Below are positions 1,741 through 14,630 of a DNA stretch of 64,000 nt, piece after piece (the first letter of the stretch is position 1; every line of letters begins with the position of its first letter). Made by a program: the position numbers and the translations under genes. The DNA comes from Desulfogranum japonicum DSM 18378. Lineage in GTDB: Bacteria; Desulfobacterota; Desulfobulbia; Desulfobulbales; Desulfobulbaceae. Under the pieces are notes generated by a model, which worked only from the letters and a program-made list of their open reading frames with translations, was not told the origin of the DNA and ran no database searches. The stretch lies in the NCBI RefSeq assembly GCF_000429945.1, contig NZ_AUCV01000001.1, positions 1 through 64,000 of the forward strand. The letters run 5' to 3'.

Positions 1741-4275
1741 TTAGTTCGCAACCTTTTGGCCCGTTATAAGCTCATGCAGCATGCCTTTGTTATTCATCAG
1801 CTCATCGTAGGTACCGTACTCCGCCAATTTGCCAGATTTCATGACGCCAACAACATCAAAAGTCTGTATGCTGTCCAGCCTGTGAACAACAGCGATCACC
1901 GTACGTTCTCCTTTCCAGCGAGTCATCAGGCGTTGAATCCTTGCCTGCGAGGCATTGTCCAGTGCAGAAGTGGCTTCATCCATCAGCAGAATTTTCGGGT
2001 CTTTCAACAGAACTCTGGCAATGGCAAGTTTTTGCTTCTGGCCACCTGAGAGTTTATCCCCCATATTGCCGACCTGATACTGCATTCCTGCTTCAGCGAT
2101 ATCTTCCAGGCAATCCTCCTCTATTAATACTCGAATAATTGCCTGATTGATTTGTTCATTGGCCGAGGTGGCATCGGTTTTCATGCGGCCAAAAAGAATG
2201 TTGTTAAAAATTGATTGGCCTTTTACAGGTGCATCATCACATAAAGGGCTTGATGCATCAATGTTTGCTGTCTGCAGGAAGTCCCGGCCATGGGGTCTTG
2301 TAGCCAAAATTTGTTCGGCCAGACCTGGTGGTATGGTGAAAGAAGAATGTTTTCCCGGTGTATAGAGTAGCGCGGGTATAAGCAGAAGTCTTTCCTCTTC
2401 TGTTGATAATTTGTAGCCAGGGGTTGCGTTCAACCGGCTAACCAGCGTGGCAAATTGCAGACTGCTCTCTGCAGAAAGTGGTGTGTTCAATACAGGCGTT
2501 TCATTGCGTTTCGGTGTGAGATAGTATTCCACAGACTCCTTGGCTATCGTGGTTCCAAGCCTGAGCAGAGATGCTTTAAGTTCATGTGCTGTGAGAAAAT
2601 CAATGAAATGCGCACTGCTCAGCAGTGCGGGAATGGTTTGCTCGGGATGCAGCGAACGTGAAAAGGTTATATTATCCAGAAGGTTTGAGTAATACAGAAA
2701 GGCTGCCGGATCATACAGTTCAATGAAAGAATCCAGGGGGGGCATCAAGCTGTCCCTGAATTTTTTTCTCATTGTGATAATTTTGGAACTTACTTTCGGG
2801 ACGGATTGTTCGTAGGGGGTCTCCAGACCGAATCGAATGACGTCCACAAAAAAGCCCGCCTGCTGGAGACTCAGTATCAGCTGATCGAGAGCAGGGGCGA
2901 TATATGATTGTTGCTTTATCGTTTGCTCGTCAACGGTAGATTGTTGCGCGTAAATGAGATTGTCCTGTACTGTTCCTGAGAAAATAAACGGATTTTGAGA
3001 GATATACCCCACGTGTTGTATGAGCTCGTGGTGGGAAATATCTTTAACCTCCACGCCGTCGATTCGTATGGAGCCCGCTGTATACTCAAAGATTTTGGCA
3101 ATACATTGAATAAGCGTTGATTTTCCGCTTCCTGAAAAACCGACCAAGGCCAGGTGCTCTCCCGGTTGCAGGGAGAAGTTTATCTGCTGCATGAGAGTCT
3201 TGCCTTCGGCGACTGTGTATCCGACGTTTGTCAGCTCCAGGGTTCCGTAACCGGGAATGGTAACATCTTTCTGTGCTCCGGTTGATGGCAATGAGGGCAG
3301 GGCAAAGGTCTTCATTGTTCTCTCGTAGCGAACAGAAGCATCCTGGTATACCTGATAAAAATCAATCAATTCTTTCCACGGATCGTACAGTTTTTCCTGG
3401 GCAGAGAGAAAGGCGACCATGGATCCCAGTTCCAACTGCCCATGCATGACCAGATACCCCCCGAAAATAAACACGATAAAGGGACCAAGGCCGACAAAGT
3501 AGTTGTTGGCGGTTTTGATACCGAAACGTAATAACGACCATTTGACGCGTATGGATCGAAGACGCTCGGTGAGTTGGCTGAATTTTTCTTTTTCTATGGA
3601 GTAGGCGCCATGTACATTGACTTCCTGAATGCCGGTAATTGATTCGGTTATGTGACTGGTGACAAGACGGGATTGATCCACTCGTTTTTTGTTGAACCGA
3701 TTGGCTTTTTTCTGCAGATATGGAACGAGAAGGACAACGAGCGGATAAATGGACAGCGTTGAAAGGGCGAGCCGTGGGTTAAGCGAAAGCAGATATCCTG
3801 CAAATACGAGCAGAGTGAGTATGTTGGCAACAGGCACAGCCAGTGCCATGCCGGCAAAGGTACCTGCAGATGCCAGTTCTGTCATGAGGGATGCTACCAC
3901 GACACCAGGCTGGGTATTGCGAAAAAAGGGCATCGGCAGGGAGATGATATGATTATAGAGTGCCTGCCGCATGGAAAGGATGGCCTGTTCACCTATTTTT
4001 GCCTGTAAAAAGTTGACTCCTAATTTACTCAGGCTGGTCAGGGAGACAGCAAAAATATAGATAGCACAGTACACAAAGAGCTGATCTAATTTTTTAAGAA
4101 CTATGGCGTCGTTGATAATTCTTTTCTGCATCTCCAAGGGCACAACCCTTGTCGCGACCATCACGGCAATTACTGCCAGCAGAAGTACCTGTAAGTGCAG
4201 TGTATTGTGAAAAGCCCAGAACAGTATTCTTTTTTCAGTTACCGGACGTTCGGATTGAGAGTTCAATGCATTCAC
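1741..4275 (-). CDS. ABC transporter (TMD-NBD) with large insert in the NBD
   Basis: A fused exporter-type half-transporter of 844 residues; about 580-600 is usual. Six membrane segments fill residues 25-320. The nucleotide-binding domain has Walker A GFSGSGKST (379-387), Q-loop Gln 427, signature LSGGQ (742-746), Walker B ILLMDE (762-767) and H-loop His 798. Q-loop to signature is 315 residues, normally about 70. The extra region repeats the kind of segment that follows a Q-loop: TVQDNLIYAQ (435-444), NLLDNITFSR (531-540) and SIFNNILFGR (688-697). All catalytic motifs are intact, so it is probably active as a homodimer. The substrate is unknown. It lies between the phosphatase and kinase genes of a partner-switching set. 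Confidence 0.88.
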   Translation of the reverse strand: MNALNSQSERPVTEKRILFWAFHNTLHLQVLLLAVIAVMVATRVVPLEMQKRIINDAIVLKKLDQLFVYCAIYIFAVSLTSLSKLGVNFLQAKIGEQAILSMRQALYNHIISLPMPFFRNTQPGVVVASLMTELASAGTFAGMALAVPVANILTLLVFAGYLLSLNPRLALSTLSIYPLVVLLVPYLQKKANRFNKKRVDQSRLVTSHITESITGIQEVNVHGAYSIEKEKFSQLTERLRSIRVKWSLLRFGIKTANNYFVGLGPFIVFIFGGYLVMHGQLELGSMVAFLSAQEKLYDPWKELIDFYQVYQDASVRYERTMKTFALPSLPSTGAQKDVTIPGYGTLELTNVGYTVAEGKTLMQQINFSLQPGEHLALVGFSGSGKSTLIQCIAKIFEYTAGSIRIDGVEVKDISHHELIQHVGYISQNPFIFSGTVQDNLIYAQQSTVDEQTIKQQSYIAPALDQLILSLQQAGFFVDVIRFGLETPYEQSVPKVSSKIITMRKKFRDSLMPPLDSFIELYDPAAFLYYSNLLDNITFSRSLHPEQTIPALLSSAHFIDFLTAHELKASLLRLGTTIAKESVEYYLTPKRNETPVLNTPLSAESSLQFATLVSRLNATPGYKLSTEEERLLLIPALLYTPGKHSSFTIPPGLAEQILATRPHGRDFLQTANIDASSPLCDDAPVKGQSIFNNILFGRMKTDATSANEQINQAIIRVLIEEDCLEDIAEAGMQYQVGNMGDKLSGGQKQKLAIARVLLKDPKILLMDEATSALDNASQARIQRLMTRWKGERTVIAVVHRLDSIQTFDVVGVMKSGKLAEYGTYDELMNNKGMLHELITGQKVAN

Positions 4276-4306: not shown

Positions 4307-6136
4307 TTATTGACAAAAGTCATGGGCAGTCGGTGCCAGTGCTATGATGACCAGGGTGATATCGTCAATCTGGTCGGCATTGCCTCGGAAAATGTGTATC
4401 TCTTCTGTGATTTTTCTCAGTATCTCCGAAGGCTCGAGGTGCATGTTTTCGCGAAGTATTTCTTTAACTCTTTCTTTGCCAAAAGCTTCCTGTTGTTCAT
4501 TTTCCTGTTCCCAGACACCATCGCTGCCAATGAGAAGAAGATGTCTGGAATGGGTGAGAGGAAAGATGTTTTCAGTGTACTGGGTATCGCTGTCCAGCCC
4601 AAGTACCAGGCCAGTTCCCTTTAATTCCCTGAATGTGTTTTCAGCAGGGGTAAAGAGCAGGGCAGGTTCGTGTCCTGCACGAATCCAGCGGATAGCCTGC
4701 AGATCCGGTTCAACTTCCAGATAGAACAGAGTAGAAAAATTACCGTATTGCAGAGTATCCCAGCAGAGGTACCGATTAATGTCATTGATACATTCTGCAG
4801 CCGAACCAGGAGCCTGGACCCTGGCACGCACAAGGGCGCGTACGGTTGCCATGAGCAGAGCAGCACCTATGCCGTGGCCGACAACATCGCCCACTGCCAC
4901 ATGCAGTTTACCGGGATGTGTTTCGGATTCAATGAAGTCAAAATAATCTCCTCCTGTTTCGTCGCAATAGAGACTGATGCCGCTGGCAACTACGCCATTA
5001 TCCGCATAGTCGGCCTGGGGCAAAAACGTCATTTGCACTTCTTTCGCTATTTGCATAGCTTTTTGAAGTTGCAGTCCCCGCTGAAGTTGTTTGGTCATGG
5101 TATTAAAGCTGTGAAGTAATTCTCCCACTTCATCTTTGCTGGAAACCAGAAAGGGTTGGCTGAATTCGCCGTGTGCCAGTTTTTTTGCCGCTGTTGAAAC
5201 TTGTCTGATGGACTGGGTGGTTTGTTTGAAGCTTGAACGAATAAACCATAACAGTATGACGATGCAGGAGAGTGTAGTCAGGATATACGCCAGTCGGAAT
5301 TTGATCAGTGGTTGAAGAACTTTTTCGCCTGGGGTTATGATAACCATGGTCCATGGGGCTTCGGACAGATGATAAAAGCCGCTTATTTCTTCAGGTGGGA
5401 TTCCTTCACCAAAAACAATACCAGATGAATTTGCCAGCAATGCGGCCAATGTCTTTTTTTCAAGTTCATTGGATACCCCGAACCGCTGGGCGGAACCCTG
5501 GGCCGCCTGTTGTTTGCTATTGATGGTTTGGGTAAGGATATTGCCTTGATTATCTACGATGTAGGCTTTGTAGATATTCCACCATCGAGATTGGATGGTA
5601 GGGGCTATGAGCTGTTCAAAATCGAGTTGTACCTCTATGCTGCCTATGGAAATATCCTGCATATTCACCAGGCGGGTACTGAGAATGACATTTTGCTGAT
5701 TGTATTCCACAGTATATAACGGCGGCGTCACTCCCAATGTTTTATCAGTTGAATCGTAAGTACGTTGTCCCATGTGCGAAAAATGCCGTCTCATCCGGAT
5801 TTCTTGAGTTTTCATCTCACTGGGCCATTGGGTGGTAATTCCGGTGACCCCGGGAACCTGTTCCAGACGGCTTATAATGTACTGGTGGACTCCATTTTCA
5901 AAATCTTTTTTGGACATTCCGTCAAGAAGGGCAAGCAGATGTTTGGGACGATTCAACTCCATATCAATGATGTGCGCTGCTTTCTCTAATTGGGCCAGCG
6001 CAGTTTCTCCCCATTGTTCCACCAGTACCCGGCGAACTGCGAGAAAACCAAACACGCCTGTTACTGTCAGAAACAGGAAGATAGGCAGAATGATAAACAC
6101 CACTGTTCGTTGATTGAGCGATTTGGGTTGGTACAT
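4307..6136 (-). CDS. Membrane PP2C phosphatase (SpoIIE/RsbU type) with sensor and HAMP
   Basis: A sensor phosphatase of 609 residues. A membrane segment at about 14-34 is followed by a periplasmic Cache-like domain (to about 275), a second membrane segment (about 280-298), a HAMP domain (about 300-355) and a PP2C-type domain. The metal-binding motifs are TGGDYFDF, GDVVGHGIGAALL, SDGVWEQ and DDITLVII. Proteins of this design dephosphorylate the STAS antagonist in response to an external signal. It is the first gene of the minus-strand cluster, 31 bases before the ABC transporter, and so the likely input of the circuit. Confidence 0.9.
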   Translation of the reverse strand: MYQPKSLNQRTVVFIILPIFLFLTVTGVFGFLAVRRVLVEQWGETALAQLEKAAHIIDMELNRPKHLLALLDGMSKKDFENGVHQYIISRLEQVPGVTGITTQWPSEMKTQEIRMRRHFSHMGQRTYDSTDKTLGVTPPLYTVEYNQQNVILSTRLVNMQDISIGSIEVQLDFEQLIAPTIQSRWWNIYKAYIVDNQGNILTQTINSKQQAAQGSAQRFGVSNELEKKTLAALLANSSGIVFGEGIPPEEISGFYHLSEAPWTMVIITPGEKVLQPLIKFRLAYILTTLSCIVILLWFIRSSFKQTTQSIRQVSTAAKKLAHGEFSQPFLVSSKDEVGELLHSFNTMTKQLQRGLQLQKAMQIAKEVQMTFLPQADYADNGVVASGISLYCDETGGDYFDFIESETHPGKLHVAVGDVVGHGIGAALLMATVRALVRARVQAPGSAAECINDINRYLCWDTLQYGNFSTLFYLEVEPDLQAIRWIRAGHEPALLFTPAENTFRELKGTGLVLGLDSDTQYTENIFPLTHSRHLLLIGSDGVWEQENEQQEAFGKERVKEILRENMHLEPSEILRKITEEIHIFRGNADQIDDITLVIIALAPTAHDFCQ

Positions 6137-9273: not shown

Positions 9274-10383
9274 TTAATACATCCTGTGTCGAAAAAGCCA
9301 GGTCGCTGCAGTCAGAGTGAGGGCTGCGATAATGGTCATGGGCCAGAGCTGGTGGCCGAATTCTGTAAGAACTGCTCCCTCCAGATAGACCCTGCGCACA
9401 ATGATCAGGAAATAACGCATTGGGTCCAGGTAGGTCATGGTTTGCATAAATTTGGGCATATTGGCAATGGGTGTGGCAAAACCGGAGAGGATGACCGCAG
9501 GAACAATGAAGAGAAACGCGCCAAGTAAGGCCTGCTGGAGCGTGGTTGACATGGAGGAGATCATCAACCCCACCCCGATGATGGCCAGAATATAGATGGT
9601 TAGCCCTGCATACAGTGCTGCAAGGCTGCCGAGTAATGGCACCTTGAACCAATAGACCGTAATCAGAATAATCAGGCTGGACTCGGCGACTCCCACAACC
9701 AGGCCGGGCATTGCCTTGCCTATGAGTATTTCCCACAGTCGCAGCGGGGTAACCAGGAGTTGATCAAAGGTACCGGCCTCACGCTCTCTGGCAACGGACA
9801 GGGAGGTGACCAGCAAGGTGACGATCATGCCAAGCAGGGCAACAATGCCGGGTACTATAAACCAGCGGCTTACCAGGTTAGGGTTGAACCTGGCACGCAT
9901 TTCCAACTGAACCGGGAGAATGCGATTGGGAAGTTCTTCGAGAAGGTCTGCGTTATACGTGGAAATGATATCACGGACGTAATTTAAGGCCAGCATGGCA
10001 GTGTTTGAGTTTCTACCATCTATCAGAATCTGCACAGGGCAACTTTCTCCCTGGTGGTAGCTTTGAGAACATTGGGGACTGATATGCAAGACCAGCAAGG
10101 CCTGGGTCGTATTGATGAGTGTGGATGCCTCCTGGCCGTTGTCAACATGACCGACCAGCTCAAAGGCCGTGGAGTTGCTGAATCGAGCTGACAGCTCCCG
10201 CGATATGGGGCTGTGATCTTCATCCCAGATAGCCAGGTTGACATGTTCAAGGTCAAAAGTGGCAGCATAGCCAAAAACAAGCAGCTGGACAATGGGAGGA
10301 ATGATAATGGCAAGACGACTTTTTTTGTCCCGGAAAAGGGCCAGGAATTCCTTGATGATAAGTGCATGCAGGCGGGCTGACAT
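9274..10383 (-). CDS. ABC-2 type permease (YhhJ/YbhR-like)
   Basis: A 369-residue inner-membrane permease. One N-terminal membrane helix is followed by a periplasmic domain of about 130 residues and five to six C-terminal helices from about residue 170. This is the ABC2_membrane_3 layout used by YhhJ/YbhS/YbhR. Its start overlaps the stop of the second permease (TAATG). With that permease, the double ATPase and the HlyD-like adaptor it forms a four-gene export operon. Such systems export drugs or other hydrophobic compounds through an outer-membrane partner, which is not encoded here. Confidence 0.9.
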   Translation of the reverse strand: MSARLHALIIKEFLALFRDKKSRLAIIIPPIVQLLVFGYAATFDLEHVNLAIWDEDHSPISRELSARFSNSTAFELVGHVDNGQEASTLINTTQALLVLHISPQCSQSYHQGESCPVQILIDGRNSNTAMLALNYVRDIISTYNADLLEELPNRILPVQLEMRARFNPNLVSRWFIVPGIVALLGMIVTLLVTSLSVAREREAGTFDQLLVTPLRLWEILIGKAMPGLVVGVAESSLIILITVYWFKVPLLGSLAALYAGLTIYILAIIGVGLMISSMSTTLQQALLGAFLFIVPAVILSGFATPIANMPKFMQTMTYLDPMRYFLIIVRRVYLEGAVLTEFGHQLWPMTIIAALTLTAATWLFRHRMY

Positions 10384-11513
10384 TACTGTTGTTCCAGGTT
10401 TCTGTTGGTTTTCAGTATTACCAGGGTGAAAAAAAGTACTCCCATAAAGAGCAGGGCGGCACTGTTTTTCAGCACGACCGGCCAGATATCTCCGGCAAGG
10501 AAAAGTGTCTGAAGAATCGCAACATAATATCTGGCTGCGATAAGATGCGTGAGTCCTTGTACAAGGGGTGGCATGGATCGGATATCAAAAATGAATCCTG
10601 AGAGAATAAAAGCCGGTAAAAAGGTGCCGATCATGGCTGCCAGGGCTGCAACGAACTGAGAACGTGCGATGGTGGAAATAAACAGGCCCATGGCCAGGGC
10701 AACCAGCAGATAGAGCACGCTGGCTGCGAGGATGATGGTCAGGGAACCCCGCATGGGAACTTCAAAAACAAACCTTCCCATGAGCAGTGAAATGGTCAAG
10801 CCTGTTATACCTAATCCAAAATAGGGGATCAGCTTGCCAAGCAACATTTCAATAACAGTCATTCTGGTTACCAGCAGGGTTTCCATGGTTCCCCGCTCCC
10901 ATTCGCGGGCAATGATCAGGGCCGTGAGCAGGGAACCTATAAGAGTCATGATGACAGCAATAACCCCCGGTACCAGGAACTCCGTGGAACGTACCCCCGG
11001 ATTGAACCAGATTCGCTGCTCCAGTTGCAAAGGGCTGTTCATTTTTCTGCCTGACAATCTGGCCTCCTGATTCAGCCAGTTGGCCCAGATACCCTGCACA
11101 TATCCCTCTACAAGACGGGCTGTGTTGGCGTCCCCACCGTTGACAATCAGGTGTACAGGGGGAGACTGGTGAGCCAGATACTCCTGTTCAAAGGTGTGTT
11201 GTAGCCAGACAATGCCGTCGACCTCAGCGTTTTTCAGGGCATTCTCGGCCTCTTGTATGGAGCCCATATGTCTGGGAGTGAAATATGGGTTGGCCCCGAA
11301 ACTGCCAATAAAACTGTCAGTAGCCTGACCATGCTGCTCCACAACAATGGCCAGGGGAACCTCTTTGGCATCCAGGGAAATACCATAACCGAAAATGAGG
11401 AGCAAAAAAATCGGCAGAAAAACTGCAATGGCGATGGCGGAAGGGTCACGGATGATCTGTAGCCACTCTTTGCGAATCATTCCTTTAAGCCTGAACAGGG
11501 ATTCGATCTTCAC
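10383..11513 (-). CDS. ABC-2 type permease (second subunit)
   Basis: A 376-residue paralogue of the adjacent permease with the same plan: a membrane helix at about 23-43, a large periplasmic domain, and a cluster of helices from about residue 175. The cytoplasmic segment AREWERGTMETLLVT is typical of the family, and the other permease has the equivalent AREREAGTFDQLLVT. Two different permeases with one tandem ATPase suggest a heterodimeric channel. It overlaps the ATPase gene by four bases (ATGA), so the genes are translationally coupled. Confidence 0.9.
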   Translation of the reverse strand: MKIESLFRLKGMIRKEWLQIIRDPSAIAIAVFLPIFLLLIFGYGISLDAKEVPLAIVVEQHGQATDSFIGSFGANPYFTPRHMGSIQEAENALKNAEVDGIVWLQHTFEQEYLAHQSPPVHLIVNGGDANTARLVEGYVQGIWANWLNQEARLSGRKMNSPLQLEQRIWFNPGVRSTEFLVPGVIAVIMTLIGSLLTALIIAREWERGTMETLLVTRMTVIEMLLGKLIPYFGLGITGLTISLLMGRFVFEVPMRGSLTIILAASVLYLLVALAMGLFISTIARSQFVAALAAMIGTFLPAFILSGFIFDIRSMPPLVQGLTHLIAARYYVAILQTLFLAGDIWPVVLKNSAALLFMGVLFFTLVILKTNRNLEQQ

Positions 11514-13282
11514 TGTGCGGCTCCGTTGTGTTCCAGGAGGTGGATAAACGCATCTTCCATGGTGGCTCCCTCTCTGTCACTGTTGTCCGCTTTGATTTCC
11601 TCTGGTGTACCCTGAGCAAGCAGGTTGCCTTCTGCCATGATAACCAGTCGATCGCAATATTCAGCCTCTTCCATGAAATGGGTGGTGACCAGAACCGTGA
11701 CTCCCTGCTCAGCCAGGCTGTTGATGTGGGTCCAGAATTCACGTCTTGCCAGGGGGTCTACCCCGGAGGTGGGTTCGTCTAAAAACAAGACGTCCGGTTC
11801 ATGCATCAGGGCAACGGCCAGGGCCAGTCGTTGTTTATATCCCAGGGGAAGCATGCCGCTCTCTGTTTTGAGATATTGATCCAGATCAAAAGTTGATATC
11901 GCCCATTGCATTTGTCTTTTCTGATGTTTGCCTCGCAGGCCATAGGCACTGGCAAAGAATTTCAGATTCTGGCCAACGGTCAGGTTGCCGTACAGGGAAA
12001 ATTTTTGAGCCATATAACCAATCCTCGATCTTGCCTGGGCTGATGCGGTACGCAGGTCCATGCCTGCCACCCGGCAACTGCCAGATGAGATGGGCAGTAG
12101 CCCGCAGAGCATGCGGAAGGTGGTTGTTTTTCCCGCTCCATTGGCACCAAGCAGACCGAAAATTTCACCTGTATTGACATGGAAGGAGACGTGATCCACG
12201 GCCGTAAAACTCCCGAATGTACGCACAAGATCCTGGACCTGTATAACGGCACTGTCCGATTCCTGTATTGCTGTGTGCAGGGTTATGGCCTGGCCGCCTT
12301 TCTGGTGTTTTGTTTTGAGGGTGGCTACAAAGTAGTCTTCAAAACGAGGAGGAACGGCGTGAACCTGCACGTCATGCCCGGGAAAGTCCTTGCTGTCCAG
12401 GGTTTGGCCTTTTTCGGTGACCACCCGCAGGGATTTGCCGAGTATAAGGGCGTCCTGAACCTGGTTCATCCGGGCAAGCTTTTTTTGCATGACCCGTTTA
12501 TGTTCCCCTTCCGCCTGTACCTGAAAAGTACGGCCTTGTACCTGGTTGCTGAAAGAGGATGGGGTCCCCTGGCCTATAACTTTGCCCTGGTGGAGCAGGA
12601 TCACTTCTCTGCACCGTTCCGCTTCATCCAGGTAGGCGGTGGACAGCATGACAGCCATGCCTTCTTCCTCAACCAGGTGATAGACGATATTCCAGAGTTC
12701 TCTTCGGCTGACCGGGTCGACACCCACCGTTGGTTCATCAAGGAGCAGGAGTTGTGGCGGGCGGATCATGGTACATACCAGACCGAGTTTTTGTTTCATA
12801 CCTCCGGAAAGGTTACCGGCAAGTCGCCTGGTAAACGGAGTCAGGCCGGACATGTCCAGTAATTGTGCATAACGCTCACCCCGCTGTTGCAGCGCAACCC
12901 CCTGGAGATCGGCGTAGAGGTCCATATTCTCCTGGACCGTGAGATCCTGGTACAGCCCAAAGCGTTGGGGCATGTACCCCACTTTGGCAAGCACTGTGTT
13001 TCGGTCCCGAAGGGGATCAAAACCGAGCACGGACAGGGAGCCTGCAGATGTCTTCAGCAGCCCCATGCAGAGGCGCATGAGAGTAGTTTTACCTGCACCA
13101 TCAGGCCCGATAAGGCCGGTAACCATATTTTTTTTGAGCGTGAAGGATACCTGTTCAAGGGCCTTGATACCACGTGCCTCAACAGTAAACTCTTTACTTA
13201 CACCTGTACACTCCAGTGGGGCAACAGTCTGTTTTGAACTATTTTCAGCTGGCATGGAATCTGACAGCTTATTGGTGGCCAC
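11510..13282 (-). CDS. Tandem ABC ATPase (RbbA/YhiH-like)
   Basis: A 590-residue protein made of two complete ABC ATPase domains. The first has Walker A GPDGAGKTT (59-67), signature LSGGMKQK and Walker B LLLLDEPTVG. The second has Walker A GANGAGKTT, Walker B VLFLDEPTSG and the degenerate signature LPLGYKQR. A linker of about 60 residues joins them. It energises the two ABC-2 permeases downstream. Unlike full-length RbbA it carries no membrane domain, matching the YbhF-type arrangement. The second site has LGYKQ in place of SGGQ, so the two ATP sites may be unequal. Confidence 0.9.
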   Translation of the reverse strand: MATNKLSDSMPAENSSKQTVAPLECTGVSKEFTVEARGIKALEQVSFTLKKNMVTGLIGPDGAGKTTLMRLCMGLLKTSAGSLSVLGFDPLRDRNTVLAKVGYMPQRFGLYQDLTVQENMDLYADLQGVALQQRGERYAQLLDMSGLTPFTRRLAGNLSGGMKQKLGLVCTMIRPPQLLLLDEPTVGVDPVSRRELWNIVYHLVEEEGMAVMLSTAYLDEAERCREVILLHQGKVIGQGTPSSFSNQVQGRTFQVQAEGEHKRVMQKKLARMNQVQDALILGKSLRVVTEKGQTLDSKDFPGHDVQVHAVPPRFEDYFVATLKTKHQKGGQAITLHTAIQESDSAVIQVQDLVRTFGSFTAVDHVSFHVNTGEIFGLLGANGAGKTTTFRMLCGLLPISSGSCRVAGMDLRTASAQARSRIGYMAQKFSLYGNLTVGQNLKFFASAYGLRGKHQKRQMQWAISTFDLDQYLKTESGMLPLGYKQRLALAVALMHEPDVLFLDEPTSGVDPLARREFWTHINSLAEQGVTVLVTTHFMEEAEYCDRLVIMAEGNLLAQGTPEEIKADNSDREGATMEDAFIHLLEHNGAAQ

Positions 13283-14318
13283 TGCAGAAAGATTGCGGAT
13301 CTGTAACGACGCTATTCCCCAGTGTGACGGTGACCGGCATGCCTAAGCGAAGTTCCTGGTTGTCGTTACATGCAAAGATTCTTGTCCTGTAGACCAGCTT
13401 GGTACGCAATTCAGTGGTTTCAACGGTTTTAGGGGTGAATTCAGCTGTGGGAGATATAAAGCCAACCCATCCGGTGTAGACTTTATCGGGAAAACTGTCG
13501 CTGTGGATTCTGGCTTCCTGTCCCTGCTGTATTTTACCAAGATCAGGTTCGCTGATATACGCTCTCACCCATAAGGGATTGCTGAGGGCCAGGGTCAAAA
13601 CAGGTGAACCGGCTGTGGCCATTGCGCCGGGCTGGAGTATGCGATTACGGATGATTCCGTCATCAGGGGCCACGAGTCTGGTGTCTTGCAGTTTCTGCTT
13701 TGCCAGTTCCAGGGAAGCGTTCAGGGCGCGCAGCCCAGCTTCTGCCTGGGCAATGTCTTCTTTACGCGGTCCCTCCTTGGCCAGGGAAAGTTGTTGTTCA
13801 GCTTCCTGCAGGGCAGCCCTGGCAGACTCGGCTTTGGTCTGGGCATTTTCAACTTCCTGTTCTGATATGCGGACGGTTTTGATGAGCGTACGTTTACGTG
13901 CCAGCTCGCTTTCTGCAAAACGCAGGTCTGCCCTGGCCGCTTCCACAGCAGCCTGTGCCATGCGAATTTCCTGTGGCCTGCTACCCTGGCGGAGACGCAG
14001 TACATTTTGTTCCTGGGCAGCATGTTCAGCTTCCAGTTGTCTGACAGCCAGTGCATACCGGGTAGGGTCAAGCTCTGCCAGCAGATCACCCTGTTTTACG
14101 TGGCTTCCTTCTTCCACGTTAATCCGGGCAATACGTCCTCCATCCTGGAATGCCATCTGCACTTCACGGATATCCACATTACCGTAGAGCGAAATATCTT
14201 TGTTCGCGTCATTTTTCTGCTTACATGCAGAAAGAAACAGAGGAAAGAAGAGAATACACAGGACAAATGCTGTGCGCAAGAGGTTGGCGAAAGGCAGGTA
14301 TTTGCAGGGGACTTTCAT
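13269..14318 (-). CDS. HlyD-family periplasmic adaptor lipoprotein
   Basis: The membrane-fusion component of the ABC exporter. The start at 14318 gives a signal peptide ending in the lipobox LSAC (a TTG at 14366 gives a longer, less likely form). A biotinyl-lipoyl half-motif (AFQDGGRIARINVEEGSHVKQGD) is split by a long Glu/Ala/Arg-rich coiled coil of about 120 residues, then closes with RLVAPDDGIIRNRI and a beta-barrel domain. It overlaps the tandem ATPase gene by 14 bases and is the first gene of the operon. The adaptor would link the permeases to an outer-membrane channel encoded elsewhere. Confidence 0.9.
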   Translation of the reverse strand: MKVPCKYLPFANLLRTAFVLCILFFPLFLSACKQKNDANKDISLYGNVDIREVQMAFQDGGRIARINVEEGSHVKQGDLLAELDPTRYALAVRQLEAEHAAQEQNVLRLRQGSRPQEIRMAQAAVEAARADLRFAESELARKRTLIKTVRISEQEVENAQTKAESARAALQEAEQQLSLAKEGPRKEDIAQAEAGLRALNASLELAKQKLQDTRLVAPDDGIIRNRILQPGAMATAGSPVLTLALSNPLWVRAYISEPDLGKIQQGQEARIHSDSFPDKVYTGWVGFISPTAEFTPKTVETTELRTKLVYRTRIFACNDNQELRLGMPVTVTLGNSVVTDPQSFCSGHQ

Positions 14319-14630
14319 AAGATATTTACCCATGGGGTGTTGTATTAGGCGATATCTGCATCTCAACTGTACGTGTTTGCAGGTGCTCCAGGACTATCCT
14401 GGGCCTATCGTTCTGATGGTTGAAGAATCTGTATGATATCCAATACCTTTTACACAGTAACACCGTTGGAAGGCAGCTGTCAAATGGAGCTTTGAGCTCT
14501 CCTGGTATTTATGGCGGCCAGCCGTATCGCCTGCAGGGTGACACGTGAATTCTCTGTAAATTCTTTATTAGTGTTGAACCCTGGATCAAATCGCTATATA
14601 TCATGGGAAGTTATAGTATTGATTGAAAGT
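14319..14630. other. Divergent intergenic region
   Basis: It separates the minus-strand exporter operon from the plus-strand cobalamin operon and should contain both promoters. I searched it for a cobalamin riboswitch (B12-box-like core and the usual paired elements) and saw nothing convincing. No ORF has a ribosome-binding site here. Confidence 0.45.

Follow-up and report, generated by a model that had tools for sequence, protein, structure and literature searches.

Why does an ABC exporter carry, in the middle of its nucleotide-binding domain (NBD), a large insert that resembles copies of its own coupling module? The question is raised by a gene at 1741-4275 (minus strand, GTG start at 4275) of the window, by which we mean the whole 64,000-nucleotide stretch of DNA analysed here. 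The 844-residue product is a half-transporter of the type IV (ABCB-like) ABC exporters: a transmembrane domain at residues 14-335 (3271-4236, minus strand; placed by the Pfam ABC_membrane match at 32-292 and the structure model) is followed by an ABC ATPase with all its motifs. These are, on the same strand, Walker A (GFSGSGKST, residues 379-387; 3115-3141), the signature (LSGGQ, residues 742-746; 2038-2052, placed by a 74-row alignment), Walker B (ILLMDEATSALD, with E767; 1957-1992) and the H-loop (H798; 1882-1884), the first and the last two placed by motif alignment. The exporter is presumably a homodimer, and we infer that its gene sits in an operon with its neighbours; promoter-like sites were no more frequent than in shuffled sequences. 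The protein is not the lipid A exporter MsbA (TIGR02203 scores 311 bits, the curated equivalog cut-off being 602), nor is it a peptidase-containing exporter such as HetC or PCAT, since the 844 residues have no C39 or other peptidase Pfam match at E ≤ 1. Elsewhere in the window, at 9274-14366, the translations reveal by eye a separate efflux cluster with an HlyD-like protein, a protein with two ATPase domains and two permeases.

The Pfam ABC_tran match of the exporter is split into two stretches. Gln427 and Leu742 are 315 residues apart, as a preliminary description of this DNA had it, and the excess, then put at about 240 residues, is larger. Walker A and signature are separated by 104 residues in ordinary exporters of the same genome (L005, L007 and L008; the search pattern missed L004 and L006) and by 357-385 in 110 insert-bearing open reading frames, a set in which the same gene recurs; the insert is thus about 253-281 residues by motif spacing. 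When the TAP1 NBD is laid on the model, 246 residues align across residues 336-839 and about 258 are left over. Other ABC proteins (ABCF, eEF3, UvrA, SMC) have insertions in their ATPases, so the fold tolerates them; we know of no other ABC protein with a repeated Q-loop module.

The insert defines a family. Its limits are clear, as all 36 matches of a search with profile A3 reach E 1.1e-68 or lower. Searches with the window insert and with profile A3 agree in placing it in 28 of the 395 genomes searched within the phylum, the own genome counted. A second copy in the own genome encodes 875 amino acids (L009:8172-10799), with a gene for a cNMP-binding-fold protein next to it. From a second collection covering many phyla, scanned with short peptides of the window protein such that distant relatives would escape, 80 loci were kept of 87 relatives; 79 are distinct (L062 repeats L021) and a few are partial. 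They are filed as 66 Thermodesulfobacteriota, nine Myxococcota (titled Deltaproteobacteria), three Pseudomonadota metagenome-assembled genomes and two unplaced. We call these 80 loci, together with the window copy and its paralogue, the window's group; L021, L062, L075, L076, L078, L079, L086, L087 and L090, being repeats or partial, are not in the tree or in the 73 rows used below. In L086 (333-2925) the exporter is split across two frames, by a frameshift or a sequencing error. An assembly or frame artefact in the window itself is rejected: the gene is a single open frame, and the insert recurs in the 28 genomes and 80 loci. Literature searches turned up no paper that, by its title or abstract start, describes the insert or the family, which is weak evidence of novelty, subscription papers being mostly uncovered.

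Alignment A1 joins the window exporter to 73 relatives at 34-55% identity. Walker A, Q-loop, signature, Walker B and H-loop had been described as intact, and the 74 rows bear this out with invariant columns at Walker A K385, Q427, the SGGQ of the signature, D766/E767 and H798. All ATPase motif residues are found in 72/73 rows of the window's group, the other row (L040) being cut by a contig end.

Along the protein (all on the minus strand) the Q-loop-to-signature region reads as follows. Repeat 1 (residues 422-484; 2824-3012) has a strand, the true Q-loop with Q427, the stretch TVQDNLIYA and helices; a long helix with the invariant R503 and the next short helix follow it (residues 493-517; 2725-2799). 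Repeat 2 (residues 518-575; 2551-2724) has IELYDPAAFLYYSNLLDNITFS and helices and lacks the Q-loop Gln. The helices at 576-649 (2329-2550), between repeats 2 and 3, are unlike the ordinary helical subdomain. A second long helix (residues 650-674; 2254-2328), with the invariant R660 and a weaker similarity to 493-517, leads to repeat 3 (residues 675-735; 2071-2253), where QSIFNNILFGR and helices run to the signature. Residues 422-445, 518-541 and 675-698 are three gapless versions of a pre-Q-loop strand, a Q-loop stretch and a 'TIxxNhhFG' turn, of which the first alone has the Q-loop Gln.

The likeness of these three stretches is real by two measures. Among 317,206 pairs of 24-residue windows scored in a 73-row profile, the 25 top scores all fall in the repeat register (offsets 96, 157 and 253); the pairs 518/675, 422/518 and 422/675 reach z 7.7, 6.1 and 5.9, which are not probabilities because the windows overlap. 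For the same pairs a profile of alphaproteobacterial relatives gives z 8.3, 5.8 and 6.2, with the best 25 again in repeat registers, offset 96 missing and 422/518 ranking 28th. HHalign between the repeat segments gave 90, 97 and 91% (the 97% is a second match, the first being a stretch common to both segments), and reversed controls were below 1% in 6/6. Compared with the Q-loop-to-signature segment of ordinary exporters, a profile of three sequences, repeat 2 scored 78% and repeat 3 97%, with reversed controls at 0.1%; repeat 3 includes the normal signature end, so repeat 2 is the stricter test. No such similarity was found for the stretch 576-650 (0.2%). Taken alone, the pairing of the R503 and R660 long helices is weaker: it ranks 175th of 320,400 (z 3.9) in the profile of the window's group and 49th (z 5.4) in the alphaproteobacterial one. 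These comparisons uphold the proposal that in the insert the Q-loop and the segment behind it look duplicated, and the coupling module (strand, Q-loop and 'TIxxNhhFG' turn) is, as judged from sequence, present three times.

A structure model had been proposed as a check, and the predicted insert is an ordered helical domain rather than disorder. AlphaFold gave a mean pLDDT of 83.9 for the whole protein and, for the insert alone, 91.1 with a pTM of 0.86; residues 431-741 are predicted to fold by themselves. Modelled secondary structure repeats at equal spacing, with strands at 422, 518 and 675 and helices at 436, 532 and 689; the repeats were compared by sequence and assigned secondary structure. 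Both domains share their fold with MsbA, Sav1866, TAP and ABCB1 (best Z about 32; the 246 residues of the TAP1 NBD fit at 1.6 Å), and the window exporter differs from these in its about 258 extra Q-loop-to-signature residues, largely repeated coupling module. Foldseek matched the insert-only model to no PDB entry at E ≤ 0.001, a result that falls short of proving a new fold; about 52 residues from the two ends of that model align to ABC helical subdomains (best Z 5.4). A known domain in the insert is rejected, as the window row has no Pfam family there and scattered matches occur in at most 2/74 rows.

Relatives with the insert are also found on plasmids of Rhizobium, Sinorhizobium, Ensifer, Ruegeria, Azospirillum and other Alphaproteobacteria: 64 plasmid records match the window insert and 263 a Ruegeria insert, and no phage matched a Rhizobium insert. 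Our alphaproteobacterial sample is of plasmids only, and 16 regions on 15 of them were read. The exporter gene is in one open frame in 15/16 (the other, L134, was left out of the motif table), and the full set of ATPase motifs is present in 0/15. L125 keeps the Walker A Lys and the Walker B Glu, and L121 has LTGGQ; in the 14 well-aligned rows, from which L129 was left out for its very long branch, K385, Q427, S743, E767 and H798 are kept in 1, 0, 0, 1 and 0. Chromosomes of Alphaproteobacteria may carry copies whose ATPase is live. The plasmid copies are not pseudogenes: whole-gene dN/dS is 0.04-0.26 in four pairs (all Rhizobiaceae, dS 0.56-0.95), indicating purifying selection, and the highest value for any part is 0.44. 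Exporters of the ABCB11 type have lost a catalytic residue and have a degenerate nucleotide site, according to PMC7544095. The alphaproteobacterial half-transporters differ in that the Walker A Lys, Q-loop Gln, signature Ser, catalytic Glu and H-loop His are lost nearly always together.

Overall conservation of the insert is unremarkable, and single residues alone stand out. Over the 73 rows the three repeat regions average 35-44% identity, below the 55% of the membrane domain and the 65% of the part beyond the signature. The alphaproteobacterial rows agree with one another at 37-38% in the insert, as against 59% in the membrane domain; a comparison of one group with the other gives 22-28% for the insert and 28% for the membrane domain. 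Even so, N439, N535, N692, R503 and R660 are invariant in 73/73 rows of the window's group and in the 14/14 alphaproteobacterial rows. Since proteins that have lost the ATPase motifs still have these residues, hydrolysis is unlikely to be all that the repeats serve, and nature offers here a threefold module in which its role can be asked apart from hydrolysis. That the insert merely enlarges or stabilises the NBD dimer or the membrane-domain contact, as a fixed structural elaboration on which no regulator docks, we consider unlikely. Such a role would suit an insert that is built from the module that touches the membrane domain (as the Q-loop/helical module does in ABC exporters), is kept without the ATPase motifs and evolves faster than the remaining protein; it leaves unexplained the signalling-type genes alongside, of which at least one of those tested is present in 48/49 loci (L039 has none).

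Those neighbours were counted with profiles seeded from the neighbours of the window copy and of its paralogue, which distant versions may escape, in the 49 loci whose sequence extends 3 kb or more to either side, loci with shorter flanks being left out. The commonest is a small cNMP-binding-fold protein encoded directly downstream (41/49 loci); counting instead the 72 loci, of 79 distinct, with at least 600 bases on that side, its gene follows immediately in 59. The protein beside the paralogue matches PF00027 at 55.5 bits (cut-off 27.5), and the others were found by a profile seeded from it. In the Alphaproteobacteria a cNMP protein is encoded by a separate gene directly downstream in 10/16 loci and is fused to the exporter C-terminus in 5/16; the fused copies, with degenerate ATPase motifs, are L123:6899-9979, L125:6836-9979, L127:6899-9961, L128:6950-9919 and L135:4399-7623. 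The window copy lacks the gene and forms a supported trio with L012 and L013, in which the exporter gene is followed directly by those for the kinase and the STAS protein; the absence in all three is most simply read as a loss.

The cNMP proteins of the two groups differ in their pockets. We take E72 and R82 of CRP to be the acid and Arg of the cNMP phosphate-binding cassette. Of the 61 adjacent cNMP proteins in the window's group (the repeat L021/L062 included), one has both residues, 22 have just the acid, 20 have just the Arg and 18 have none; with the pair incomplete in 60, cAMP itself is an unlikely ligand there. Both residues are present in 2/6 non-adjacent cNMP proteins of the same loci, a small control. 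In the alphaproteobacterial proteins the acid (Glu, in three cases Asp) and the Arg are both kept in 15/15. By their residues, then, the two groups keep opposite nucleotide sites, ATPase motifs in one and the cNMP pocket pair in the other, and this reciprocity is a ready-made comparison. Adenylate/guanylate cyclase genes are annotated near L121, which lacks the ATPase motifs, and near L134.

A further set of neighbours consists of a PqqD-like protein and two proteins without a Pfam family, one of the latter with an apparent signal peptide by eye. They occur singly in 21, 23 and 20 of the 49 loci, with at least two present in 20, and are found with or without partner-switch genes nearby; matches to NCBIfam PqqD chaperone models are below cut-off. 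The set lies at L009:5495-7621, with similar ones in L024, L026, L044, L045, L047-L049, L058, L070 and L080. PqqD relatives serve peptide maturation, and the presence of this set would suit an insert that is a non-regulatory recruiter of a substrate or partner (for example cargo or a biosynthetic enzyme), with the signalling neighbours acting on transcription. Five alphaproteobacterial copies (L121, L122, L124, L126 and L130) adjoin glycosyltransferase genes, a company that hints at an envelope polysaccharide or lipid and would likewise suit a recruiter; L121 and L130 are also near genes for a polysaccharide deacetylase and a nucleotide sugar dehydrogenase. We nevertheless hold recruitment to be improbable, as the neighbours vary by lineage while the insert stays, and the sole neighbour that is ever fused has the fold of a ligand-binding regulator.

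In the window the exporter is flanked by a partner-switch module, in the order SpoIIE-ABC-RsbW-STAS and all on the minus strand: a HAMP-SpoIIE phosphatase gene 31 bp upstream (4307-6136; Pfam), an RsbW-like kinase gene 2 bp downstream (1304-1738; Pfam HATPase_c_2) and a STAS antagonist gene that overlaps the kinase gene (978-1340; Pfam). By Pfam and alignment each has the residues of its class: six Asp of the phosphatase motifs are kept in 25-26 of 26 aligned rows, the N-box Glu and Asn of the kinase in 41/41 and Ser68 in the YISSAG of the STAS protein in 43/43, residues that presumably are catalytic or phospho-acceptors. The preliminary description had expected homologues with the insert to sit beside such genes. 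Many do: at least one of the three is present in 30/49 loci (RsbW, STAS and SpoIIE singly in 28, 29 and 16). As a general partner of the insert the module does not hold up, being confined to one clade. In a quick tree built without the insert columns, the window copy belongs to a clade of 41 rows (SH-aLRT 99), of which 40 have partner-switch genes; none were found in the other rows of the window's group in the tree or in the 16 alphaproteobacterial loci. The own genome (5.8 Mb) has four SpoIIE and seven HATPase_c_2 proteins over cut-off, the window's included; with such genes so few, their repeated presence beside the exporter is not chance. Since the commonest neighbour has the cNMP fold, and is even fused in Alphaproteobacteria, the insert predates its association with the kinase and STAS genes or is, at the least, independent of it.

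RsbW/STAS/SpoIIE modules classically act on sigma factors, and the module next to the exporter, with its active-site residues conserved, might do the same while the exporter is just co-transcribed, an account compatible with a regulatory role for the cNMP proteins. We regard it as somewhat unlikely. No sigma factor was found among 10 flanking proteins from four loci, a small sample in which 4/10 have no Pfam match at all, and the exporter gene is placed between those for phosphatase and kinase in the window and five further loci (L012, L013, L020, L067 and L091). Such modules can, moreover, act on enzymes. SiaABCD of Pseudomonas brings together a HAMP-SpoIIE-type phosphatase, a kinase and a STAS-like partner; the window cluster has an ABC exporter where SiaABCD has a diguanylate cyclase, and the window phosphatase matches the SiaA model at E 3e-17 with 62 of 700 bits, far under cut-off. 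SiaC activates the enzyme SiaD by binding, as PMC8457831 describes.

A signal-gated exporter, in which the triplicated coupling module takes input from a regulator, is the account we prefer, and we judge it about evenly balanced between right and wrong; the triplication, ATPase motifs, gene order, conserved neighbours, fusions and reciprocal nucleotide sites from which it is drawn are all read from the DNA. Copy 1 has the real Q-loop and copy 3 runs into the signature, with copy 2 and the further helices forming an added domain between them. This part of the NBD, whose order is predicted, would be a platform on which a regulatory protein docks and sets the NBD, and so transport, on or off; docking and gating are what we infer. 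In most relatives the regulator would be the small cNMP-fold protein, encoded directly downstream or fused C-terminally. In the clade of the window, the partner switch would provide the input, in addition to that regulator or in its stead: the HAMP-SpoIIE phosphatase would sense, RsbW would phosphorylate the STAS protein and the free partner would act on the exporter. In ABC transporters the helical/Q-loop module links ATP use with transport, and the ligand- or phosphorylation-controlled neighbours, up to fusion, suggest that here it would take a regulatory signal and pass it to the membrane domain. Partner switches are usually tied to sigma factors; the gene clusters suggest that one can also be connected to a transporter.

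In a bolder extension the family would be no plain pump but a signalling gate of ABC descent, with the triplicated module lasting while the source of energy or signal is swapped between lineages. The window's group would be driven by ATP and steered by a partner switch or by a regulator that no longer reads cyclic nucleotides; in Alphaproteobacteria, with a dead ATPase, a cyclic nucleotide would open the fold by way of the attached cNMP domain, making it a cyclic-nucleotide-gated ABC-fold channel, flippase or sensor without ATPase. Taken jointly these parts are tentative and rather unlikely all to be right, and the alphaproteobacterial relatives may be something else altogether.

A precedent for an ABC exporter under a cNMP-fold domain is HetC of Nostoc: PMC10986499 describes its cNMP domain as binding ppGpp in vitro and as required in vivo. 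HetC has the cNMP domain at its N-terminus together with a C39 peptidase; in the present family the domain is separate or C-terminal and no peptidase matched. HetC and SiaC/SiaD provide precedents for a cNMP fold essential to an ABC exporter and for a partner switch that controls an enzyme by binding. A RelA/SpoT-domain protein is encoded near one exporter locus (L020:1246-2325), a single case that is of interest because the HetC cNMP domain binds ppGpp.
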